Shown here piece by piece: positions 7,196 to 29,421 of a stretch of DNA of 30,833 nucleotides (the stretch's first letter is position 1; the number at the start of each line of letters is the position of its first letter). This stretch comes from a virus. The position numbers and the translations under genes are program-made. The notes under the pieces were generated by a model that was not told where the DNA came from, searched no databases, and saw only the letters and a list, made by a program, of their open reading frames with translations. The stretch lies in the IMG/VR virus record IMGVR_UViG_3300042541_001236, positions 1 through 30,833 of that record; one strand, 5' to 3'.

Positions 7196-7231
7196 GGGAA
7201 TCAATGACACGCACGAATTACCCCGGAAAAA

Positions 7232-7303
7232 TTGCAGGGGTGGGAGTCGAACCCACGACCTAGAGCTTATGAGACTCCCGCGCTACCACTGCGCCACCCT
7301 GCG
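7232..7303 (-). tRNA. tRNA-Met (CAU), initiator-like
   Basis: A full cloverleaf: acceptor CGCAGGG / CCCTGCA, D arm GCGC-AGTGGTA-GCGC, anticodon loop CTCATAA (anticodon CAU), variable AGGTC, T arm GTGGG-TTCGACT-CCCAC, A73, no encoded CCA. Position 1 is C and position 72 is A, an unpaired C1xA72, the hallmark of bacterial initiator tRNA, and much of the sequence follows initiator tRNA-fMet. However, the anticodon stem lacks the three G-C pairs of initiators (A29-U41, G30-C40, U31-G39 instead), and the D stem has C11-G24, not A11-U24. It could serve as initiator, elongator Met, or lysidine-modified Ile2. Confidence 0.93.
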
Positions 7304-7557
7304 ATTGAAGTGCCCGCCCTCATCGCTAGCTTGCGCATGACGGCGTAGAGGGCGAGCTGATACCAACCAAGATACCGGCCACAGAGTTTCATGGCTCAGC
7401 CAGTTGTCAAGCCGTCAGCGCCCGACGAGTCAAGCATCGCGAGTTGCCGCTTGCCATCCCTTGCCCGCCGTGGTTGGGTAATGCATTGACCCGCCGCGCC
7501 TCTTCGATCTAGCGGATCGCCATGCGTAATTCGGCGGGTGTTTTTTTTGCGGGGGTA
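7304..7557 (+). ncRNA. Candidate non-coding region ending in a plus-strand terminator
   Basis: No convincing gene lies between the tRNA and the plus-strand gene pair. The plus strand ends in an 8-bp stem ACCCGCCG (7489-7496) / CGGCGGGT (7532-7539) whose loop holds a second hairpin CGATC-TAGCG-GATCG, followed by eight T (7541-7548). A second copy of CCCGCCG (7464-7470) could compete for the same partner. This may be a small RNA or the leader of the downstream genes. Confidence 0.35.
7489..7548 (+). terminator. Strong intrinsic terminator, plus strand
   Basis: 8-bp G/C stem with nested 5-bp hairpin in the loop and a TGTTTTTTTT tail. There is no plus-strand gene upstream within the window to account for it. 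Confidence 0.7.
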
Positions 7558-21511: not shown

Positions 21512-22120
21512 GCTCTTGCCCTTTTGCTTGGTGTCAAATTTACCGCTCACGACTTCATCGGCGAATCCTTCCGCGACTGCCGTTTCGGCGCTCATCCAAG
21601 TCTCCTCCTTCATCCGCTCGCGCATTTCGGATGGCTTCTTGCCAGTGCGCTCGGCATAGATCTCGGCAATCTCGCCGCTCATTTCGTCCAGCAACTTCGC
21701 GGCCCGTGCGTGGTCCTCGGCGTTGCCCCAAGTCGCGGTCGAGGCTTCGTGAATCATCATCCGTCCGCCCTTCACGATCTTGATTTCATCCGCAGCCATC
21801 GCGATCACGGATGCCATGGACGCGGCGAGCGAATTGATAAACGCCGTGACGTGGACTCCGCGCCCGCGAAGGTCCATGATCGCCTGATAGACCCGGTATC
21901 CGTCCAGGATGCTGCCGCCTGGGGAATGGATCTCGAATTCCATCGTATCCGCCGCGTTTTCGGCTGAGTTCATCAGGACTCCGAAATCCGCCCCCTCGGC
22001 AACGGCTCGCGCCCCGAACACGCTGCCGATTTCCTCAAGCAGCTTGTCAACGGACTCCTTGTAAACGCTCTCGTTGAGCTTCACTTTGCCCGCCTTGTTT
22101 TCAATCGTCAGAATTTTCAT
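21071..22120 (-). CDS. ClpP-like head maturation protease with fused scaffold region
   Basis: A 349-residue protein (ATG at 22120; a GTG at 22123 is just upstream). The N-terminal about 190 residues are a ClpP/S49-type fold: EFEIHSPGGSILDGYRVYQA, then SLAASMAS with the nucleophile Ser (about 101) and MIHEAS with the His (about 124). The C-terminal part (about 210-300) is a long coiled coil (LKGEVSNRENEVAELSNKVS), as expected for a scaffold. Such proteins process the prohead. It overlaps the portal gene by 20 bp. Confidence 0.88.
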   Translation of the reverse strand: MKILTIENKAGKVKLNESVYKESVDKLLEEIGSVFGARAVAEGADFGVLMNSAENAADTMEFEIHSPGGSILDGYRVYQAIMDLRGRGVHVTAFINSLAASMASVIAMAADEIKIVKGGRMMIHEASTATWGNAEDHARAAKLLDEMSGEIAEIYAERTGKKPSEMRERMKEETWMSAETAVAEGFADEVVSGKFDTKQKGKSMNILDRLTSPASAEALAEIDTLKGEVSNRENEVAELSNKVSVAEAALQEAATATAELRNNLATAAARVTELEAIAARVPELEAAAVVTAEKVGIEAARQLAASGHPEPIEGIETAQVANAMTREAFNSLSPRAKSDFSKSGGKITA

Positions 22121-23603
22121 CACTTTGAGTGGTTGGTTTTGCTTTGCCTGCTTCCGATCCGTTTGGATTTCTCATGCCCATTTCGTCGTCCGTGATTTTG
22201 ACGCCGTGTTTCGAGCCGACTTCCTTGGCAATGACCTTGCCAAGCGCCACCTCTTCGGCCCGCTCGCGCAAGTGTTCTTGGAGCGACTTACCGTAAGCGC
22301 CAAGGATGTCGGTTTGGTTGGTGTGGCCTGCTTTCCACATCTCGATCAACTCTTTCGATACGCGCCCGTCGTCAATCGTGAGTTTTTTCGGCATCGTGAA
22401 ATCCCACTTCCACCAATCGGCGGAAGGCTCCAGAATCCCGAGCTTGATGGCCTTGGCGATGGCGTAACCGACTTTACGGCGGGCGCCTTTTTTAAGTGTT
22501 TCCTGACGGTCCTCAACCGCAAGTTGCGCCTTGGAAATGTCGTTTCGCTCGGCAGTTCCCTGCCCACTTGGTTTCCAAAGTGAGTAGGGCCAGCCGACCC
22601 CAACCAGCGCGGCGCGGATGATTCGGTCGTGGAACGATTCCCACTCGGGGCCAGGTCGCGAGTTGACAAGCTGCTCGATCCCGCCGCCGCTGTTGGCGCG
22701 GAAATAGCGCATCATCCCGCCTGCGAAAGACTCAACAGTCACGCCGCAACCGGCGGCAACTCCTTCTTCCCCGCCCGTCAGCGCGTTCATCGGATCGCCC
22801 ATGTCAGGGCCGCCTGTTTCGTTTTTTTCAATGAGGCCGATGGCGGACGCCATTAGTAAAGCGTGCTGTTCCCATTCGTGAGATTGTAGCATGTCCCTCA
22901 GTTTATTCAAAGAAGCCGTAAACGCGGGCAATCCGCGCCCCTGCTCTTGCCAAGACGGGTCGAAATTGTGAATCAGGTCGCGATAGGAAACCCATTGCTC
23001 GGTCTTCCCGTCCTCGCTCAAAATCGCAGCAGCAACAGGCTGGTCTAGCCGGTTGTACGCGATGCCGTCGCGGATTTTCGCGTTCCGATACGGCCCTTCC
23101 TTGATGTATCCACTGTCGGTCGAGTAGCCGCACCCTACGCGGTGTGCGGGGATTTGCTGCACTCGCGGGTATCCGGTGCGGTCTTCTGTTAGAAGCTCCC
23201 AAGCCTCGCCATCCCGGTCAATTGCGTTGGATGTGGTGTAAAGCGTGGTGGCGAAATCGTATTCGTTTCCGCGAATGTCGCAAAGCTGATACCATTCCTC
23301 AGAAAGCCACTTCGCCGCCTTGTCGCCCCATTCTTTATTTTTGCCTTGAAACTTCGGAAGCCAGGCGCGTCCCACCGAATACATGGATTTTTGCTCAATC
23401 GCGCCCTTTAGGATTTCTTCATTCAGGTAGAGTTTGCGAGAAGCCGAAACAATGGTCTTGCGGTCCCACGATGGCACCAAAGCGCCGATGTCCTTCATCT
23501 CCACCGACTCATAAGGGCGCGAACGAGTTTCCCGGTCGGCAGCTCTTGCGGGTCGGCGGTATTGATACGGCTGCCCGTTTTGGTCAAGTATGATGCTGGA
23601 CAT
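22101..23603 (-). CDS. Portal protein, lambda family
   Basis: A 500-residue protein of the usual length for lambda gpB-type portals. Recognisable sections are TIVSASRKLYLNEEILKGAI (early helices), AIDRDGEAWELLTEDRTGYP, QIPAHRVGCGY, the DPSWQEQGRGLPAFTASLNK stretch (compare R-G-xP in the family) and AALVGVGWPYSLWKPSGQGT. It forms the dodecameric DNA channel at one capsid vertex. Its last codons double as the A/C-rich leader of the protease gene. Confidence 0.9.
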   Translation of the reverse strand: MSSIILDQNGQPYQYRRPARAADRETRSRPYESVEMKDIGALVPSWDRKTIVSASRKLYLNEEILKGAIEQKSMYSVGRAWLPKFQGKNKEWGDKAAKWLSEEWYQLCDIRGNEYDFATTLYTTSNAIDRDGEAWELLTEDRTGYPRVQQIPAHRVGCGYSTDSGYIKEGPYRNAKIRDGIAYNRLDQPVAAAILSEDGKTEQWVSYRDLIHNFDPSWQEQGRGLPAFTASLNKLRDMLQSHEWEQHALLMASAIGLIEKNETGGPDMGDPMNALTGGEEGVAAGCGVTVESFAGGMMRYFRANSGGGIEQLVNSRPGPEWESFHDRIIRAALVGVGWPYSLWKPSGQGTAERNDISKAQLAVEDRQETLKKGARRKVGYAIAKAIKLGILEPSADWWKWDFTMPKKLTIDDGRVSKELIEMWKAGHTNQTDILGAYGKSLQEHLRERAEEVALGKVIAKEVGSKHGVKITDDEMGMRNPNGSEAGKAKPTTQSDENSDD

Positions 23604-23605
23604 GG

Positions 23606-23887
23606 TTAGAAACGGACGAATGTGCGGCTGCTTGGCCGGGTGTTGTTATCCAGTCCAATAATCGCAATACGCATTGCCGAAATTCGATGCGACTCGGGCA
23701 GGCCCACCGTCTTCTGGTAGCTCACGCCGTTCTTGGTGGCCGATGTCACGTTGTCCGTGCCGCCCTTGGTTAGATACCCAGCGGAAACAGCCGATGCAAA
23801 CTCAGTTTTCACCGACGCAATCCGGATGGCGTCGCCGAAAGCGTAGTCGTAAATGTCCTGTGCCGCCTGGAATGCGTTCGCCGCCAT
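23606..23887 (-). CDS. Head-tail joining protein candidate (gpW position)
   Basis: A 93-residue protein (MAANAFQAAQDIYDYAFGDA, then ESHRISAMRIAIIGLDNNTR) that ends 2 nt before the portal start. In lambda the gpW gene lies between terminase and portal. No strong sequence match to gpW is claimed. A 13-bp palindrome GTCAAAGTTTGAC (23903-23915) lies just upstream. Confidence 0.6.
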   Translation of the reverse strand: MAANAFQAAQDIYDYAFGDAIRIASVKTEFASAVSAGYLTKGGTDNVTSATKNGVSYQKTVGLPESHRISAMRIAIIGLDNNTRPSSRTFVRF

Positions 23888-23902
23888 TGCAAAGCGGGCG
23901 GT

Positions 23903-23915
23903 GTCAAAGTTTGAC
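23903..23915. promoter_or_regulatory. Palindrome GTCAAAGTTTGAC, operator candidate
   Basis: Perfect 6-bp inverted repeat around a single G, located between the divergent genes at 23887 (minus) and 24090 (plus). TTTGAC also resembles a -35 box. Could be a repressor site. Confidence 0.35.
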
Positions 23916-24002
23916 GGGGTGACGAAAAAAGCTTGCGCGGGCCGATGATTTTTGGAATTGGTCGCGGCACGCTTTCGTGAGGCGCAAAAACCAGATCAGC
24001 AA

Positions 24003-24070
24003 CAGCCTTCGGGCTGGCTTCTAGGGGGTTCTGGCCCCATCACGACTAGGAGCCAGCCCGTGGGCTTTTT
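24003..24070 (+). promoter_or_regulatory. Attenuator-like leader with three competing hairpins
   Basis: Three overlapping structures precede the plus-strand gene at 24090. (1) CAGCC-TTCG-GGCTG (24003-24016), a stable tetraloop hairpin. (2) GGGCTGGCTTCTAG (24011-24024) pairing with CTAGGAGCCAGCCC (24046-24059). (3) AGCCC-GT-GGGCT-TTTT (24055-24070), a typical terminator. (2) needs the bases of both (1) and (3), so forming (1) would free (3) and stop transcription, while (2) would block the terminator. The pairings are exact apart from one G-T; the regulatory reading is inferred. Confidence 0.55.
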
Positions 24071-24089
24071 CGTGCACAAAACAAACCAG

Positions 24090-24728
24090 ATGGCTATTAA
24101 GAAAAAACAAGAAGAGACGGTCGCGGTTCATATCAGCGCCCCGAAAATTGAAACGCTCAAGGTCCGCATTGTCGGGACCGCTCCATACGTCCAGCTCCGG
24201 TTTTCGGAAAAGGCGATCAATGCCATGTCGGAAAAGATGATGGCGGGATCGCAGGCAACGAAGAAAAAGGCGCGGGAGGCTCGAAACTTCGACGAGGATT
24301 TCCGCCAAGCACTCCACGTTTCCGACGAAGGGTGGCACGGCATTCCTGCCGGTGCTTTCCGCGCCGGAATGATCGACGCTTGCCGGTTGGTCGGATTCAA
24401 GATGACTCAGGCGAAAATGTCCGTTTTCGTCGAAGCTGATGGGTTCGACAAGGTTGATGCCGTCCCGCTCATCAAGATCAAGGGCAAGCCGGAACCGTCC
24501 AAGATGCACGTTCGCAATGCCACCGGCGTTTGTGACCTGCGCGTTCGGGCTAAATTCTGGCCATGGTCGGCGGAAATCCGAATCAGCTACGACGCTGACC
24601 AGTTCTCCGCAAACGACGCGATCAACCTCATTAACCGGGTCGGCGCGCAAGTCGGGGTTGGCGAGGGTCGCCCGTTCTCCAAAAACTCCGCTGGCATGGG
24701 CTGGGGCACCTTCCGCATCGAAGATTGA
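24090..24728 (+). CDS. Conserved phage protein of unknown function
   Basis: A 212-residue protein (start at 24090, after AAACAAACCAG; the longer frame from 23952 would run through the hairpin leader). Motifs: KVRIVGTAPYVQLRFSEKAI, WHGIPAGAFRAGMIDACRLV, FKMTQAKMSVFVEADGFD, MHVRNATGVCDLRVRAKFWP, VGVGEGRPFSKNSAGMGWGT. I recognise this as a widespread but uncharacterised phage family. It is on the strand opposite to the terminase-portal genes that flank it, and its 3' side is a GGCNN tract. Confidence 0.75.
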   Translation: MAIKKKQEETVAVHISAPKIETLKVRIVGTAPYVQLRFSEKAINAMSEKMMAGSQATKKKAREARNFDEDFRQALHVSDEGWHGIPAGAFRAGMIDACRLVGFKMTQAKMSVFVEADGFDKVDAVPLIKIKGKPEPSKMHVRNATGVCDLRVRAKFWPWSAEIRISYDADQFSANDAINLINRVGAQVGVGEGRPFSKNSAGMGWGTFRIED

Positions 24729-24744
24729 TCGTCAATGCCACATT

Positions 24745-24902
24745 GCAGGCTGGGCAAGGCCAGACGAGGTCAGGCGCGCAATCGCATGTTACGGCAGGCG
24801 TGGCAGGGCGTGGCAAGGCCAGGCGAGGCACGGCAAGGCAAGGCACGGCAGGCAAGGCGGGGCGGGGCCGGGCTAGGCTAGGCGCGGCATGGCAACACAC
24901 GG
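24745..24902 (+). repeat. GGCNN pentamer tract 1
   Basis: About 155 bp of mainly 5-nt units GGCNN (GGCAA, GGCAC, GGCAG, GGCGG, GGCTA), degenerate and broken by single shifts. It begins soon after the stop of the plus-strand gene at 24728 and ends in the 37-nt element at 24891-24927. Confidence 0.85.
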
Positions 24903-24927
24903 CGTGATGGGCATCACTATAAAAGGC
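24891..24927 (+). repeat. 37-nt tail element, copy 1 (ends CTATAAAAGGC)
   Basis: Matches the copy at 25637-25673 at 29 of 37 positions with no gaps; the last 11 bases CTATAAAAGGC are identical. Here TATAAA lies about 20 nt before the ATG of the next plus-strand gene and could act as a -10 box. It also contains a small hairpin TGATG-GG-CATCA. Confidence 0.7.
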
Positions 24928-24941
24928 CCGCATTCTCCAAT

Positions 24942-25403
24942 ATGAAAACGAAACCAAATGAAACGGCATCTCTTGAGGAACTCCTTGGGAAGATCGCGCA
25001 GAAACACGGCGGGACATTGACACCGGAACAGGTGCTAAAAGCGGCGGCTCCGAAAAGCTCGCCGCTACACCAGCACTTCCAATGGGACGACACGGAAGCG
25101 GCGAGGCAATACCGCTTGATGCAGGCCGGCCAGCTCATCCGCAGGGTCCGCATTACCTACTCCCCAAGCGAGGGCCGCGAGTTCCGCGTCCGCGCTTTCG
25201 TGAACGTCACCCCTGAAGCGTGCGAAGACGAAAGCCCGCGTGGCCATTACGTCTCTTTCGAGACGGCAATCGGAATCCCGAACTACCGCGAGCAACTGTT
25301 GGCAAATGCGCGGCGGGACGCTGAGACTTTCAAGCAGAAATACGCCACGCTTGAAGAGGTGCTTCCAATCATCCAAGCCATCGACGCAGGCTTGGCCCGG
25401 TAG
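24942..25403 (+). CDS. Conserved phage protein of unknown function
   Basis: A 153-residue protein. The N-terminal half (LEELLGKIAQKHGGTLTPEQ, VLKAAAPKSSPLHQHFQWDD, TEAARQYRLMQAGQLIRRVR) is a pattern I recall from conserved phage proteins with SPLHxxFxWDD. The C-terminal third is helical (RREQLLANARRDAETFKQKY-like). Like the gene before it, it lies on the plus strand between terminase and portal and is followed by a GGCNN tract. Function unknown. Confidence 0.75.
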   Translation: MKTKPNETASLEELLGKIAQKHGGTLTPEQVLKAAAPKSSPLHQHFQWDDTEAARQYRLMQAGQLIRRVRITYSPSEGREFRVRAFVNVTPEACEDESPRGHYVSFETAIGIPNYREQLLANARRDAETFKQKYATLEEVLPIIQAIDAGLAR

Positions 25404-25423
25404 GCCCGCAAAGGCTCGACTCG

Positions 25424-25651
25424 TCATGGCAGGCATGGCGAGGCCTGGCACGGCGAGGCTGGGCAAGGCACGGCAGGCAAGGCTCGGCAAGGCATGGCAC
25501 GGCAAGGCATGGCGAGGCACGGCAGGCGTGGCGCGGCGTGGCGTGGCGTGGCAAGGCTGGGCGAGGCTGGGCAAGGCATGGCAGGCAAGGCAGGCAAGGC
25601 TTGGCAGGGCAAGGCACGGCACGGCCCGGCAAGGCAGGCACAACACGGCGA
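25424..25651 (+). repeat. GGCNN pentamer tract 2
   Basis: About 225 bp of GGCNN pentamers (GGCAA, GGCAC, GGCAT, GGCGA, GGCGT), with short runs of in-phase units. It follows the stop of the gene at 25403 and ends in the second 37-nt element. Open frames that cross it are low-complexity (ARHGK/ARQGM type) and are not taken as genes. Confidence 0.88.
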
Positions 25652-25673
25652 CATGAGCAGGTCTATAAAAGGC
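25637..25673 (+). repeat. 37-nt tail element, copy 2 (ends CTATAAAAGGC)
   Basis: Ungapped direct repeat of the element at 24891-24927 (29/37). Its last base abuts the stop codon of the terminase large-subunit gene on the other strand (TGA at 25676-25674). Confidence 0.7.
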
Positions 25674-27413
25674 TCACTTTACCTCTTCCATTGCGACGAG
25701 AACCTTGAAAATGCACGCTGCGACGACTCCAATCACCTCGCAGTCCCAAAGGTGGTTCGGTGCGTGCTGCTTAACGAGTTCCCATCGCCACAAGCCCGGT
25801 TTCACCTCGCGCTTTTGCTCGTTCTGCATCTGGCTGTGGTAGTTTTTCGAGGCATCGACCGGCACTCCGAAGCTGCCGCTACCCATCAATGCCGTTAGTC
25901 GGTCTTTCGCCAGCAGGTTGGAAAACGGAATGATCTGGTAAGCCTGACCAGCGGACGAAATGCAGTTGATGTAATCGCCGAAAATGCGCCGGTATTTCTT
26001 TTCACCGTAACGCTTGATATAGCCGTCAACGTCCGCGCCTTTTGTAAGGTTCCAAGGTTTTGGGTCGTTCGGTGTCGCTGACCTCATTGCCTCGTTGGCA
26101 ACCTCCTCCTGCTGGTATCCGCAGTCCACGAACACGCACCGGTTTTCGACGCCGAAACGCTCTTGCAAGTATCGCACGTTGTCCCATGTCTCAACCCGTC
26201 CCTCCCAAAGTAGCCGCGATTGCCCGCCGATCTTCCATGCGCGAATACCAACCCATCGGTGGCCCTTCTGGTTGTCCACGGTCATAAAGCGGAAGTCTTC
26301 CAAGTCCCATTTTGCGCCTTCGTGGAACTCGTTCTTGGAATACGGATCGCCAGTGTCGGTCAGCCTGGGCGTGTCAGACGGCGGCGACCAGAACGACGCG
26401 AAACGCTGGGTAATGATTTGCTCCAGCTTCTCAAGCTGCCCGTTCTTCTTCTCCTCGTTGGCGACGATCCATTCTTTCACAATGTCGCTCCACCGATAGC
26501 GCCAGACGGTCATGAAGGTTGCCCGCAACGTCATCCGCTCGGGCATGAATCGCCCTTCGTCCCACACCGGGCGGCACTTGGCCCACTGTCGCCGGTTGTA
26601 TTCCGTGTCCTCAAACTCCGTCCCGCAGTGCGGGCATTTCAAGCGGACCGTGGCGAAGATGGCCGGCCAATCCAGTTCCTCGTTGCCGTCGCGGATTGTC
26701 TCATATTGGAAATTCTTCCAGTCAAAAACGTGACCGGTTGAGCAGTGCGGGCAGAGATGTTCCAGCTCATGCCACTTGCCGTCCTTCGCGTGCTTGTGCC
26801 ACTCGGTTCCTTCGTTCCCGCCTTGGGACATGAGCAAGTTCTTGCGGTTCCATCGCCCGTGATGGCGCTTCAAAAGGAATCCGATCATGCCCTCATCCCA
26901 TCGCCAGCACTCGTCGCCCGCCGTGTTGACCATCGACTTTTCCTGCAGGTCGGTGACGTTCGCGGCGCCGGCGAAGAAATTCATGTGCCGGAAAATCACC
27001 GAGTCCTTCTTCCAGTTGGACCGCTCCGGCCCGGTCGGGATGTAGTCGCGGGTCAGCGGCGAAGTCTGCCAAACTTTGCGCATCCGCGACTCCATCCAGT
27101 CCTTCACCATGTCCGTCGTCTGGCCAATGACCAGAGTGTCGCCAGGGTCAACTGCCACGATGCGGGTACACCACGATTCAAGGATCGCCGTCTTGCCAAA
27201 CCCGACGCACGCCAGAACCGCAATCTCCCGCACCTCGGAATCCTCCAGCCAATCGAAAATTGTGCTGTGCGCCGGCACGGCATCGAGCGAATATCGCGCC
27301 CCTTCGGGAGAGTTTGGGAGATACACGTTCTCGCTTACCCACTCGCGGAGCGGCATCTCAGGTGGCGGGCGAACCCCGAGCCGGAAGCCGTCAAGGTAGG
27401 GTGTCGGGCGCAT
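25674..27413 (-). CDS. Terminase large subunit (GpA-like)
   Basis: A 579-residue ATPase-nuclease that packages DNA. The ATPase part has a variant Walker A CVGFGKT (69-75) and a Walker B-like NTAGDECW (D167, E168). Two CPHC pairs (221-224 and 260-263) form a zinc-finger insert as in GpA-type terminases. The nuclease part shows TVDNQKGH, VFVDCGYQ and WDCEV acidic positions. It starts 23 bp inside the small-subunit gene. The length is typical of the family. Confidence 0.92.
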   Translation of the reverse strand: MRPTPYLDGFRLGVRPPPEMPLREWVSENVYLPNSPEGARYSLDAVPAHSTIFDWLEDSEVREIAVLACVGFGKTAILESWCTRIVAVDPGDTLVIGQTTDMVKDWMESRMRKVWQTSPLTRDYIPTGPERSNWKKDSVIFRHMNFFAGAANVTDLQEKSMVNTAGDECWRWDEGMIGFLLKRHHGRWNRKNLLMSQGGNEGTEWHKHAKDGKWHELEHLCPHCSTGHVFDWKNFQYETIRDGNEELDWPAIFATVRLKCPHCGTEFEDTEYNRRQWAKCRPVWDEGRFMPERMTLRATFMTVWRYRWSDIVKEWIVANEEKKNGQLEKLEQIITQRFASFWSPPSDTPRLTDTGDPYSKNEFHEGAKWDLEDFRFMTVDNQKGHRWVGIRAWKIGGQSRLLWEGRVETWDNVRYLQERFGVENRCVFVDCGYQQEEVANEAMRSATPNDPKPWNLTKGADVDGYIKRYGEKKYRRIFGDYINCISSAGQAYQIIPFSNLLAKDRLTALMGSGSFGVPVDASKNYHSQMQNEQKREVKPGLWRWELVKQHAPNHLWDCEVIGVVAACIFKVLVAMEEVK

Positions 27414-28160: not shown

Positions 28161-28483
28161 AGCCGCTTAAAAATTTTGAGCCCATGTTTTCTTGCCGTCG
28201 CTTCCATGTTGGCGGTCCCTTTCCCGCCCGGAAATAAAACAACTGCTTGCGCCTGCTTAGCCATGGCTTCGTTTCGCATTGGTCCCGCCGCCTTGCCATA
28301 AGTTTTCCAATCTGCGGCAATCTTAGTGACCGGCAATCCGATTCTCCTTGCCCATATTTCTCCGAACTCATCACCTCCCCGACATCCACCGCTTATAACT
28401 TCCGACACCCCTATTCTTGACAAGAATTCCGCGTCACCTTGTCTTTCGGTGTAGTCTCTTCCTCCTGCAATTATTGTTTTCAT
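28157..28483 (-). CDS. DUF2493/SLOG-like Rossmann protein
   Basis: A 108-residue protein: MKTIIAGGRDYT (beta-strand and GGR loop), SEVISGGCRGGDEFGEIWAR (second nucleotide-binding loop), ADWKTYGKAAGPMRNEAMAK and VVLFPGGKGTANM (PGGxGT). These are the hallmarks of DUF2493, a member of the SLOG/LOG-DprA nucleotide-binding superfamily; LOG enzymes split nucleoside 5'-monophosphates into base and ribose 5-phosphate. The exact activity here is unknown. The start at 28483 overlaps the ParB-PRTase stop (ATGA). Confidence 0.85.
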   Translation of the reverse strand: MKTIIAGGRDYTERQGDAEFLSRIGVSEVISGGCRGGDEFGEIWARRIGLPVTKIAADWKTYGKAAGPMRNEAMAKQAQAVVLFPGGKGTANMEATARKHGLKIFKRL

Positions 28484-29421
28484 TGGTAGGTGATCCATGC
28501 AAATGGTCGGCAGTTGCCCCCAGCTTCGTGAATTGCATTCACGCATGCCCGAATCGTTCGGCCAGTGGTTATCACATCATCCAACAAAAGAATGCTACAA
28601 TTTTCAACGGCGCTTGACAAAATTTGTTGCTTTTCCTCCGCGTGAACCCCTCTCGATTTTCTGTCGCTCGCGCCAAAGATTTCTTTTCGCTTGGTCCCCA
28701 TTAGACTGGCTACCGCATCAGCCACCGCTATCATTGGATGGCTTTCGCGCTTGCTTGCTGGAACGGTGACAAATTGAAACTTTGGCCACTTCGGCCCCGG
28801 CCTGTTGAACATTTCTGAGAAGTCTGCAATCAACCTTTCAGCGAATGCTTTCGGGTTGCTCTGCTTCATTGCCATAACCTCCTTGTAGTCAGTGACAGAG
28901 CTTGTTGATTTTACGGCAAAGCATCCAATGCACGCATCCTTCACATGATAAGGGCCGAGTCCGGTCGGTCGCGGAACAGAAGATTCGATTGGCGACTTGC
29001 TTTGTTCTTGTTCGGTCGGTTCCGGTGAATTCAAAAATGCCTCAATATCTGCGCCGTCGAAGCCGAGCAGGTCCAGGTCAAAGTCCATTTCCCGTAGGTC
29101 GGCCAGCTCCAGCCCGAGCAGCTCCTCATCCCAGCCCGCGTTCAGCGCGAGCTTGTTGTCCGCGATGATGTAGGCGCGGCGCTGCGTGTCGGTGAGGTGC
29201 GACAGCCGGATGCACGGCACTTTCGCCAGCCCGAGCTTGCCTGCTGCCAACACGCGGCCATGGCCGGCGATGATGCCGTTCTCGCCGTCGATTAGGACCG
29301 GGTTTGTGAAGCCGAACTCTCGGATGCTGCCCGCAATCTGCGCGACCTGCGCATCGGAGTGGGTCCGCGCGTTGCGGGCGTAGGGAATCAGGTCCGATGT
29401 CGGTATGGTTTCGATTTTCAC
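28480..29421 (-). CDS. ParB-like domain fused to a phosphoribosyltransferase
   Basis: A 313-residue two-domain protein. Residues 1-130 are a ParB/sulfiredoxin-fold domain: LIPYARNARTHSDAQVAQIA, then NGIIAGHGRVLAAGKLGLAK with the GHGR box, and RRAYIIADNKLALNAGWDEE. After a linker (about 131-155) the C-terminal part ends in a textbook type-I phosphoribosyltransferase signature, LLLDDVITTGRTI (about 278-290), with DACIGCFAVKST at about 162-173. In phages this ParB domain is usually joined to a DNA methyltransferase; here that place is taken by a PRTase. Substrate unknown; linkage to the SLOG gene suggests nucleotide or base chemistry on DNA. Confidence 0.85.
   Translation of the reverse strand: MKIETIPTSDLIPYARNARTHSDAQVAQIAGSIREFGFTNPVLIDGENGIIAGHGRVLAAGKLGLAKVPCIRLSHLTDTQRRAYIIADNKLALNAGWDEELLGLELADLREMDFDLDLLGFDGADIEAFLNSPEPTEQEQSKSPIESSVPRPTGLGPYHVKDACIGCFAVKSTSSVTDYKEVMAMKQSNPKAFAERLIADFSEMFNRPGPKWPKFQFVTVPASKRESHPMIAVADAVASLMGTKRKEIFGASDRKSRGVHAEEKQQILSSAVENCSILLLDDVITTGRTIRACVNAIHEAGGNCRPFAWITYQ

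Follow-up and report, generated by a model that had tools for sequence, protein, structure and literature searches.

Two plus-strand genes lie between the minus-strand portal gene and the minus-strand terminase large subunit gene of an IMG/VR virus record (IMGVR_UViG_3300042541_001236), and each is followed by a tract of GGCNN pentamers and a 37-nt element. What kind of system is this, and how could it serve the phage? We analysed the whole record of 30,833 nt, called the window below. A first-pass annotation had described the locus as an array of gene cassettes, and had offered the 37-nt elements as recombination sites, promoter-bearing spacers or structured RNA 3′ ends. The repeated gene-tract-element arrangement was borne out by pattern counts and by an ungapped alignment of the two elements (29/37 positions identical). 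The function proposed here is different: the locus is very probably a VIPR system, with a Vipr protein, array RNAs carrying NN guides, hairpin tails and a partner gene.

VIPR, an RNA-guided system described only very recently, is a proposed ancestor of CRISPR. The preprint that describes it (PMC13142463, 2026) presents in its main text a phage-encoded RAMP protein and vrRNAs of alternating GGY and NN, with 9–16 repeats and an invariable structured 3′ tail, found mainly in phages and prophages. The NN recognise DNA, skipping one base, accessory genes are named vap1 to vap6, seven types are distinguished, and ‘staggered arrays with overlapping vrRNAs’ are mentioned (fig. S18) (PMC13142463).

Organization of the locus

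The features discussed below are the following.

22101–23603, minus strand: portal gene
23606–23887, minus strand: small ORF beside the portal gene
23969–25673, plus strand: whole putative VIPR locus, about 1.7 kb, apparently transferable (extent of homology to four related loci)
about 23969–24092, plus strand: leader, a long and very stable hairpin followed by TTTTT
24090–24728, plus strand: gene 1, predicted vipr, 212 aa, RAMP/Cas7-like (phrog_4652; profile match to 36pp; model compared with Csm3/Cas7)
24793–24890, plus strand: array 1 (unit parse; NN replaced in relatives)
24793–24796 and 24847–24850, plus strand: GGCA units of array 1
24797–24846 (10 units) and 24851–24890 (8 units), plus strand: guide segments of array 1
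24891–24927, plus strand: tail 1, 37 nt, putative 3′ handle of array 1, with a hairpin at 24904–24917 (conservation; covariation with tail 2)
24942–25403, plus strand: gene 2, vap-like partner, 153 aa (phrog_15946; adjacency to gene 1)
25428–25636, plus strand: array 2 (unit parse)
25432–25471 (8 units), 25476–25520 (9 units), 25525–25579 (11 units) and 25593–25632 (8 units), plus strand: guide segments of array 2, separated by GGCA
25584–25588, plus strand: lone unit of array 2
25637–25673, plus strand: tail 2, 37 nt, putative 3′ handle of array 2 and right border of the locus (conservation, covariation and homology edge)
25674–27413, minus strand: terminase large subunit gene

The leader hairpin preceding gene 1 (−53 kcal/mol, z −4.4) is conserved in all near relatives inspected and looks like a terminator or attenuator placed upstream of vipr, inside the locus. 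No sigma-70-like promoter was found in 23850–25750, tRNA was the only known family matched in an RNA-family search, and genes 1 and 2 had no Pfam, NCBIfam or PADLOC match. Scanning of flanking proteins revealed no cas gene; the locus itself shows no integrase and no CRISPR repeats, its repeats being 5-nt GGCNN units.

Gene 1 is predicted to encode a Vipr protein

A family profile of gene 1, built from 40 relatives, was searched against all PDB sequences. The sole significant match was 36pp, ‘SUSP1 Vipr protein’ (E 1.3e-4); before iteration the match to SUSP1 Vipr spans only about 55 residues, and after profile iteration it reaches 132 bits. We also compared an AlphaFold2 model of the protein (pLDDT 84.9) with a structure library older than 36pp. 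All 46 matches with E ≤0.001 were to CRISPR effectors, for the most part Csm3/Cas7 of type III and chains of type VII, with modest whole-chain TM-scores against Cas7 (0.35–0.46). The family conserves a G-rich stretch, QVGIGEGRPxSKNSAGMGWG; with the 36pp match and the fold hits, this agrees with the RRM core and glycine-rich loop expected of a VIPR RAMP homologue. On profile and model, gene 1 is predicted to be Vipr, a small RAMP/Cas7-like protein.

The association of this family with the tracts was examined from the DNA side. When IMG/VR was scanned for the GGCNN pattern with no other criterion, at least 120 stretches were returned, so the pentamer tracts, which the first-pass annotation had proposed to look for in related phages, are widespread. 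Many of the stretches carry several tracts in one orientation with a repeated tail of their own. With the iterated profile, a gene 1 relative was encoded in 84 of the 120 stretches listed, compared with 0/24 control stretches and no reversed protein; since the stretches are fragments, its absence from the other 36 is uninformative. The relative shares the strand of the nearest tract in 82 of these 84 cases, and the median separation is 24 nt. Looser tracts, in which GGC units are interspersed with GGA and GGT, were observed downstream of gene 1 in L175, L178, L190 and L199 and are perhaps another repeat code.

Gene 2 is a conserved neighbour of gene 1

Gene 2 stands beside gene 1 in 32 of the 33 annotated phages that carry gene 1 (Mycobacterium and Gordonia). 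In the actinophages inspected, tracts lie between both genes or immediately before gene 1, and in many actinophages gene 1 abuts gene 2 with no element between them. A model of the gene 2 protein (pLDDT 87) had no significant PDB match, with weak winged-helix (FoxO) hits at best. Its sequence suggests a conserved, vap-like partner; we call it only vap-like because the protein has no match to SUSP1 vap1.

GGCNN tracts as proposed punctuated guide-RNA arrays

Over the whole window, the pattern of four GGCNN units followed by GGC has 36 exact matches, all on the plus strand and all in the two post-gene gaps, against none in 100 dinucleotide shuffles. A six-repeat pattern gave 30 forward and 0 reverse matches, and 0 in the reversed-pattern control. 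By analogy with SUSP1, the tracts would be guide-RNA arrays. They combine GGY with hypervariable NN as VIPR tracts do, in segments of mostly 7–12 units, on the low side of the published 9–16. Taken whole, the window arrays fit less well, with 18–37 repeats against 9–16 for single vrRNAs (PMC13142463).

Every 4-nt unit in the window tracts is GGCA, as are 111 of 113 such units when near relatives are included, and the runs closed by GGCA in this set are mostly 7–12 units long, with a mode of 8. GGCA is also the start of the tails. The dinucleotide preceding it (AC 22, AT 10, GC 9, AA 6; n = 47) is constrained relative to inner ones, both at its first base (p = 1.7e-8) and at its second (p = 2e-4). 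In relatives at 70–76% identity, 9-nt breaks such as GGCATCGCA occur in the place of GGCA, alongside GGCA itself. Our inference is that a run corresponds to one guide, with GGCA at its 3′ border.

These features lead us to suggest, tentatively and as something a little short of probable, a punctuated VIPR architecture. A transcript with a single tail would hold several guides of mostly 7–12 repeats, each closed by R-H plus GGCA, which would break the register or mark a cleavage site; segments duplicated or swapped between the two arrays would renew the guides, and phages would trade the entire locus at the terminase-portal junction. The staggered arrays of the preprint possibly reflect the same architecture, a long tract with several guides, although its main text has no 4-nt GGCA unit. 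GGCA punctuation and a punctuated multi-guide array may go beyond that main text and are possibly new; they offer a clear, checkable hypothesis for how multi-guide RNAs are divided.

The 37-nt elements as probable RNA 3′ tails

No further copy of the 37-nt element, nor of the 27-base pattern common to tails 1 and 2, was found in the window. Tail 1 can form the hairpin GTGAT-GGGC-ATCAC. The corresponding hairpin of tail 2 is GACCT-GAGC-AGGTC in most copies and GACAT-GAGC-AGGTC, with one mismatch, in the window. Compensatory changes on both sides affect 3/5 hairpin pairs (6 distinct rows from two lineages, a small set), and in the same 6 rows 96.7% of hairpin cells are paired, against 26.7–50% when partners are slid. 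The hairpin rests on this covariation, since single-sequence folding energies of the tails are no better than those of shuffles. Together with their position, this argues that the 37-nt elements are 3′ tails, or handles, predicted to end the guide-RNA arrays, as expected for the invariable structured 3′ tail of VIPR. The suggestion of a structured RNA 3′ end was therefore upheld, and that of per-gene recombination sites gave way to it.

A promoter-bearing spacer (TATAAA) had also been suggested. This reading of TATAAAAGGC was rejected: tail 2 directly adjoins the terminase stop codon, no plus-strand gene lies beyond it and no promoter was matched. In related loci the tails differ in sequence and often show a short stem and then GGTAWAAA; TATAAAA therefore seems to belong to the handle rather than to a promoter.

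Other tail forms were observed among the stretches. In L022, L040, L058 and L133, a contig-specific tail recurs in many successive tract-tail repeats; the window arrays are single-tailed. Some tails 3′ of GGCNN tracts (L024, L039, L113, L127) resemble a tRNA acceptor/T-arm minihelix with a GGTTCGA loop. The 90 nt on the 3′ side of tracts hold GGTTCGA-type motifs at 0.18 per kb (7 occurrences), about 7 times the density elsewhere (51 occurrences, 0.025 per kb). Such tRNA-like tails may recruit tRNA-processing enzymes.

Putative guide content is replaced while genes and tails are kept

Fourteen IMG/VR loci were taken as near relatives (gene 1 99–100% identical in amino acids; 92–99% nucleotide identity, mean 94%). 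Gene 2 and the tails are present, in the same gene order, wherever the relative's stretch extends far enough. The GGC scaffold is kept, and NN agree at 31–37% of positions on average. Across these loci, array 1 has 15–48 units and array 2 has 16–39. Tract content thus does vary among relatives, as anticipated, and it is the number of repeats per array that differs: among near relatives reaching gene 2, the predicted variation in cassette number was absent. Since the same proteins and tails accompany almost wholly different guides, the guides change at a far higher rate than the genes do. Replacement of NN and change in repeat number would fit guides under changing target pressure.

Traces of how guides turn over were found in several loci. 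Segments are duplicated within one array in L154, segments are common to array 1 and array 2 in L157, and a GT-GG-TT-CC segment family in L149, L158 and L160 is likewise common to both arrays. Relatives with duplicated, partly altered segments make guide acquisition without a Cas1-like enzyme testable.

The locus is transferred as a whole

Compared with L151, L154, L155 and L157, homology (about 87–92%) is confined to 23969–25673 and stops at tail 2; the flanks are unrelated or remotely related. In L157 the locus sits between a different terminase and a different portal gene and is co-directional with both; in the window it runs opposite to its neighbours. The first-pass statement that the genes run against the operon holds for the window and fails for L157. 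The portal of near relatives is either 97–100% or about 63% identical. Sharp homology edges, the different context in L157 and the two portal classes indicate exchange of the locus as one block of about 1.7 kb. Cassette gain and loss survives in this modified form: the two-gene, two-array locus moves whole, with borders near 23969 and 25673, and the number of gene-plus-tract units is constant in the near relatives that reach far enough. Sharp-edged transfer of the whole locus may also exceed what the preprint's main text reports and is possibly new; the locus contributes near-relative data on a compact 1.7-kb unit passed on whole.

Comparison with known systems

Protein, RNA anatomy and context place the locus, on sequence and model, in VIPR. 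The VIPR locus in Escherichia phage SUSP1 (PDB 36pp; KT454805; PMC13142463) likewise pairs a small RAMP gene with a partner, has intergenic GGY-NN and a structured 3′ tail, and is carried by a phage. The window locus differs in that Y is C in every array, several GGCA-closed segments share one tail, an array follows each gene, the partner lacks detectable kinship to vap1 and the tail sequences are others. The same gene 1 family, with GGCNN tracts and GGCA, occurs in Mycobacterium (Cheoctovirus) and Gordonia phages and in Cyanophage Cy-LDV1, where the homologues (29–63% protein identity) are annotated as hypothetical and array position and tails differ; the actinophages have gene 2, whereas Cy-LDV1 is without a detectable one. 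Phage carriage is seen both in the position between terminase and portal genes and in the 33 annotated phages with gene 1.

Class 1 CRISPR-Cas systems (type III Csm3/Cas7, type VII Cas7) resemble the locus in the predicted RAMP fold and, by analogy, in a filament on guide RNA. They combine a repeat-spacer array with several cas genes and use contiguous spacers, whereas the locus has neither CRISPR repeats nor cas genes and shows a 5-nt period with constant GGC.

By analogy with the published SUSP1 work, from which transcription, RNP formation, the skip rule and silencing are taken over, Vipr would assemble along the array RNAs with one subunit per GGCNN unit. GGC would be gripped by the protein, and NN would pair with DNA, one base being skipped between successive NN. 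Each array would provide several GGCA-closed segments of mostly 7–12 repeats, with the hairpin tail as 3′ handle. Gene 2 probably aids DNA binding, and the complex would act on genes of competing phages, binding and silencing them, a role in inter-phage conflict that is carried over from the published VIPR system.

Target searches

Exact skip-rule patterns of six guides were searched against IMG/VR, and all guides against the window and related loci. No target was supported for the six patterns in IMG/VR, where matches stayed at chance level. A mycobacteriophage guide pattern had one match and two guides had none. An 8-unit pattern had 20 matches, about the chance number by a rough estimate, none of them matching all 10 units. 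For the 12-unit guide of L160 and the 11-unit guide of the window, matches cover only the 9 scanned units and no flanking unit. Against the window and related loci, guides matched no more often than shuffled guides did, or than patterns with other skip lengths. One candidate, the last array 1 guide against L158/L159 with one mismatch, relied on a tail unit and disappeared under the correct parse.

Alternative explanations

In the gene-cassette reading, the 37-nt element is an attC-like recombination site and single genes are gained and lost. Integron cassettes do pair a gene with a short hairpin element, the whole locus does occur in two contexts with sharp borders, the right one at tail 2, and segments are common to both arrays. 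Yet both genes are constant and in the same order in all near relatives reaching far enough, so the gain or loss of single cassettes that marks integrons was not seen; the elements come after RNA arrays, with hairpins that covary as RNA; and neither an integrase in the locus nor, in many actinophages, an element between genes 1 and 2 was seen. We regard this reading as very improbable. Functionless repeats, whether products of simple-sequence slippage or selfish, deserve still less credence and are barely conceivable here: pentamer repeats can in principle grow by slippage, but the strand bias of 36 to 0 with none in shuffles, the conserved and covarying tails, the link of one protein family to 84 of the 120 stretches listed, and the retention of GGC while NN is replaced all speak against them.

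The tracts might instead be bound as RNA by a Vipr-like protein that regulates the phage's own genes and not those of rivals. The terminator-like leader suggests regulated expression, and our searches found no rival target. But NN that differ almost wholly among near-identical proteins are a poor fit to a fixed self target, no self target rose above chance in the window or near relatives, and published guides match rival elements (PMC13142463). Own-gene regulation is thus very improbable too, if slightly less so than the cassettes, and a VIPR system directed at competing phages is the reading we retain.

Additional observations

Two arrays of GGY-NN are annotated as coding in Gordonia phages, gp40 of UmaThurman (L143:5605–5970) and gene 43 of Pipp (L147:5605–5880); both are probably mis-annotated guide arrays. 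The phage record also carries a tRNA-Met gene on the minus strand (7231–7304), and a minus-strand ORF at 28480–29421 combines, by weak Pfam matches, a ParB N-terminal domain with a phosphoribosyltransferase-like domain, which is an unusual combination.
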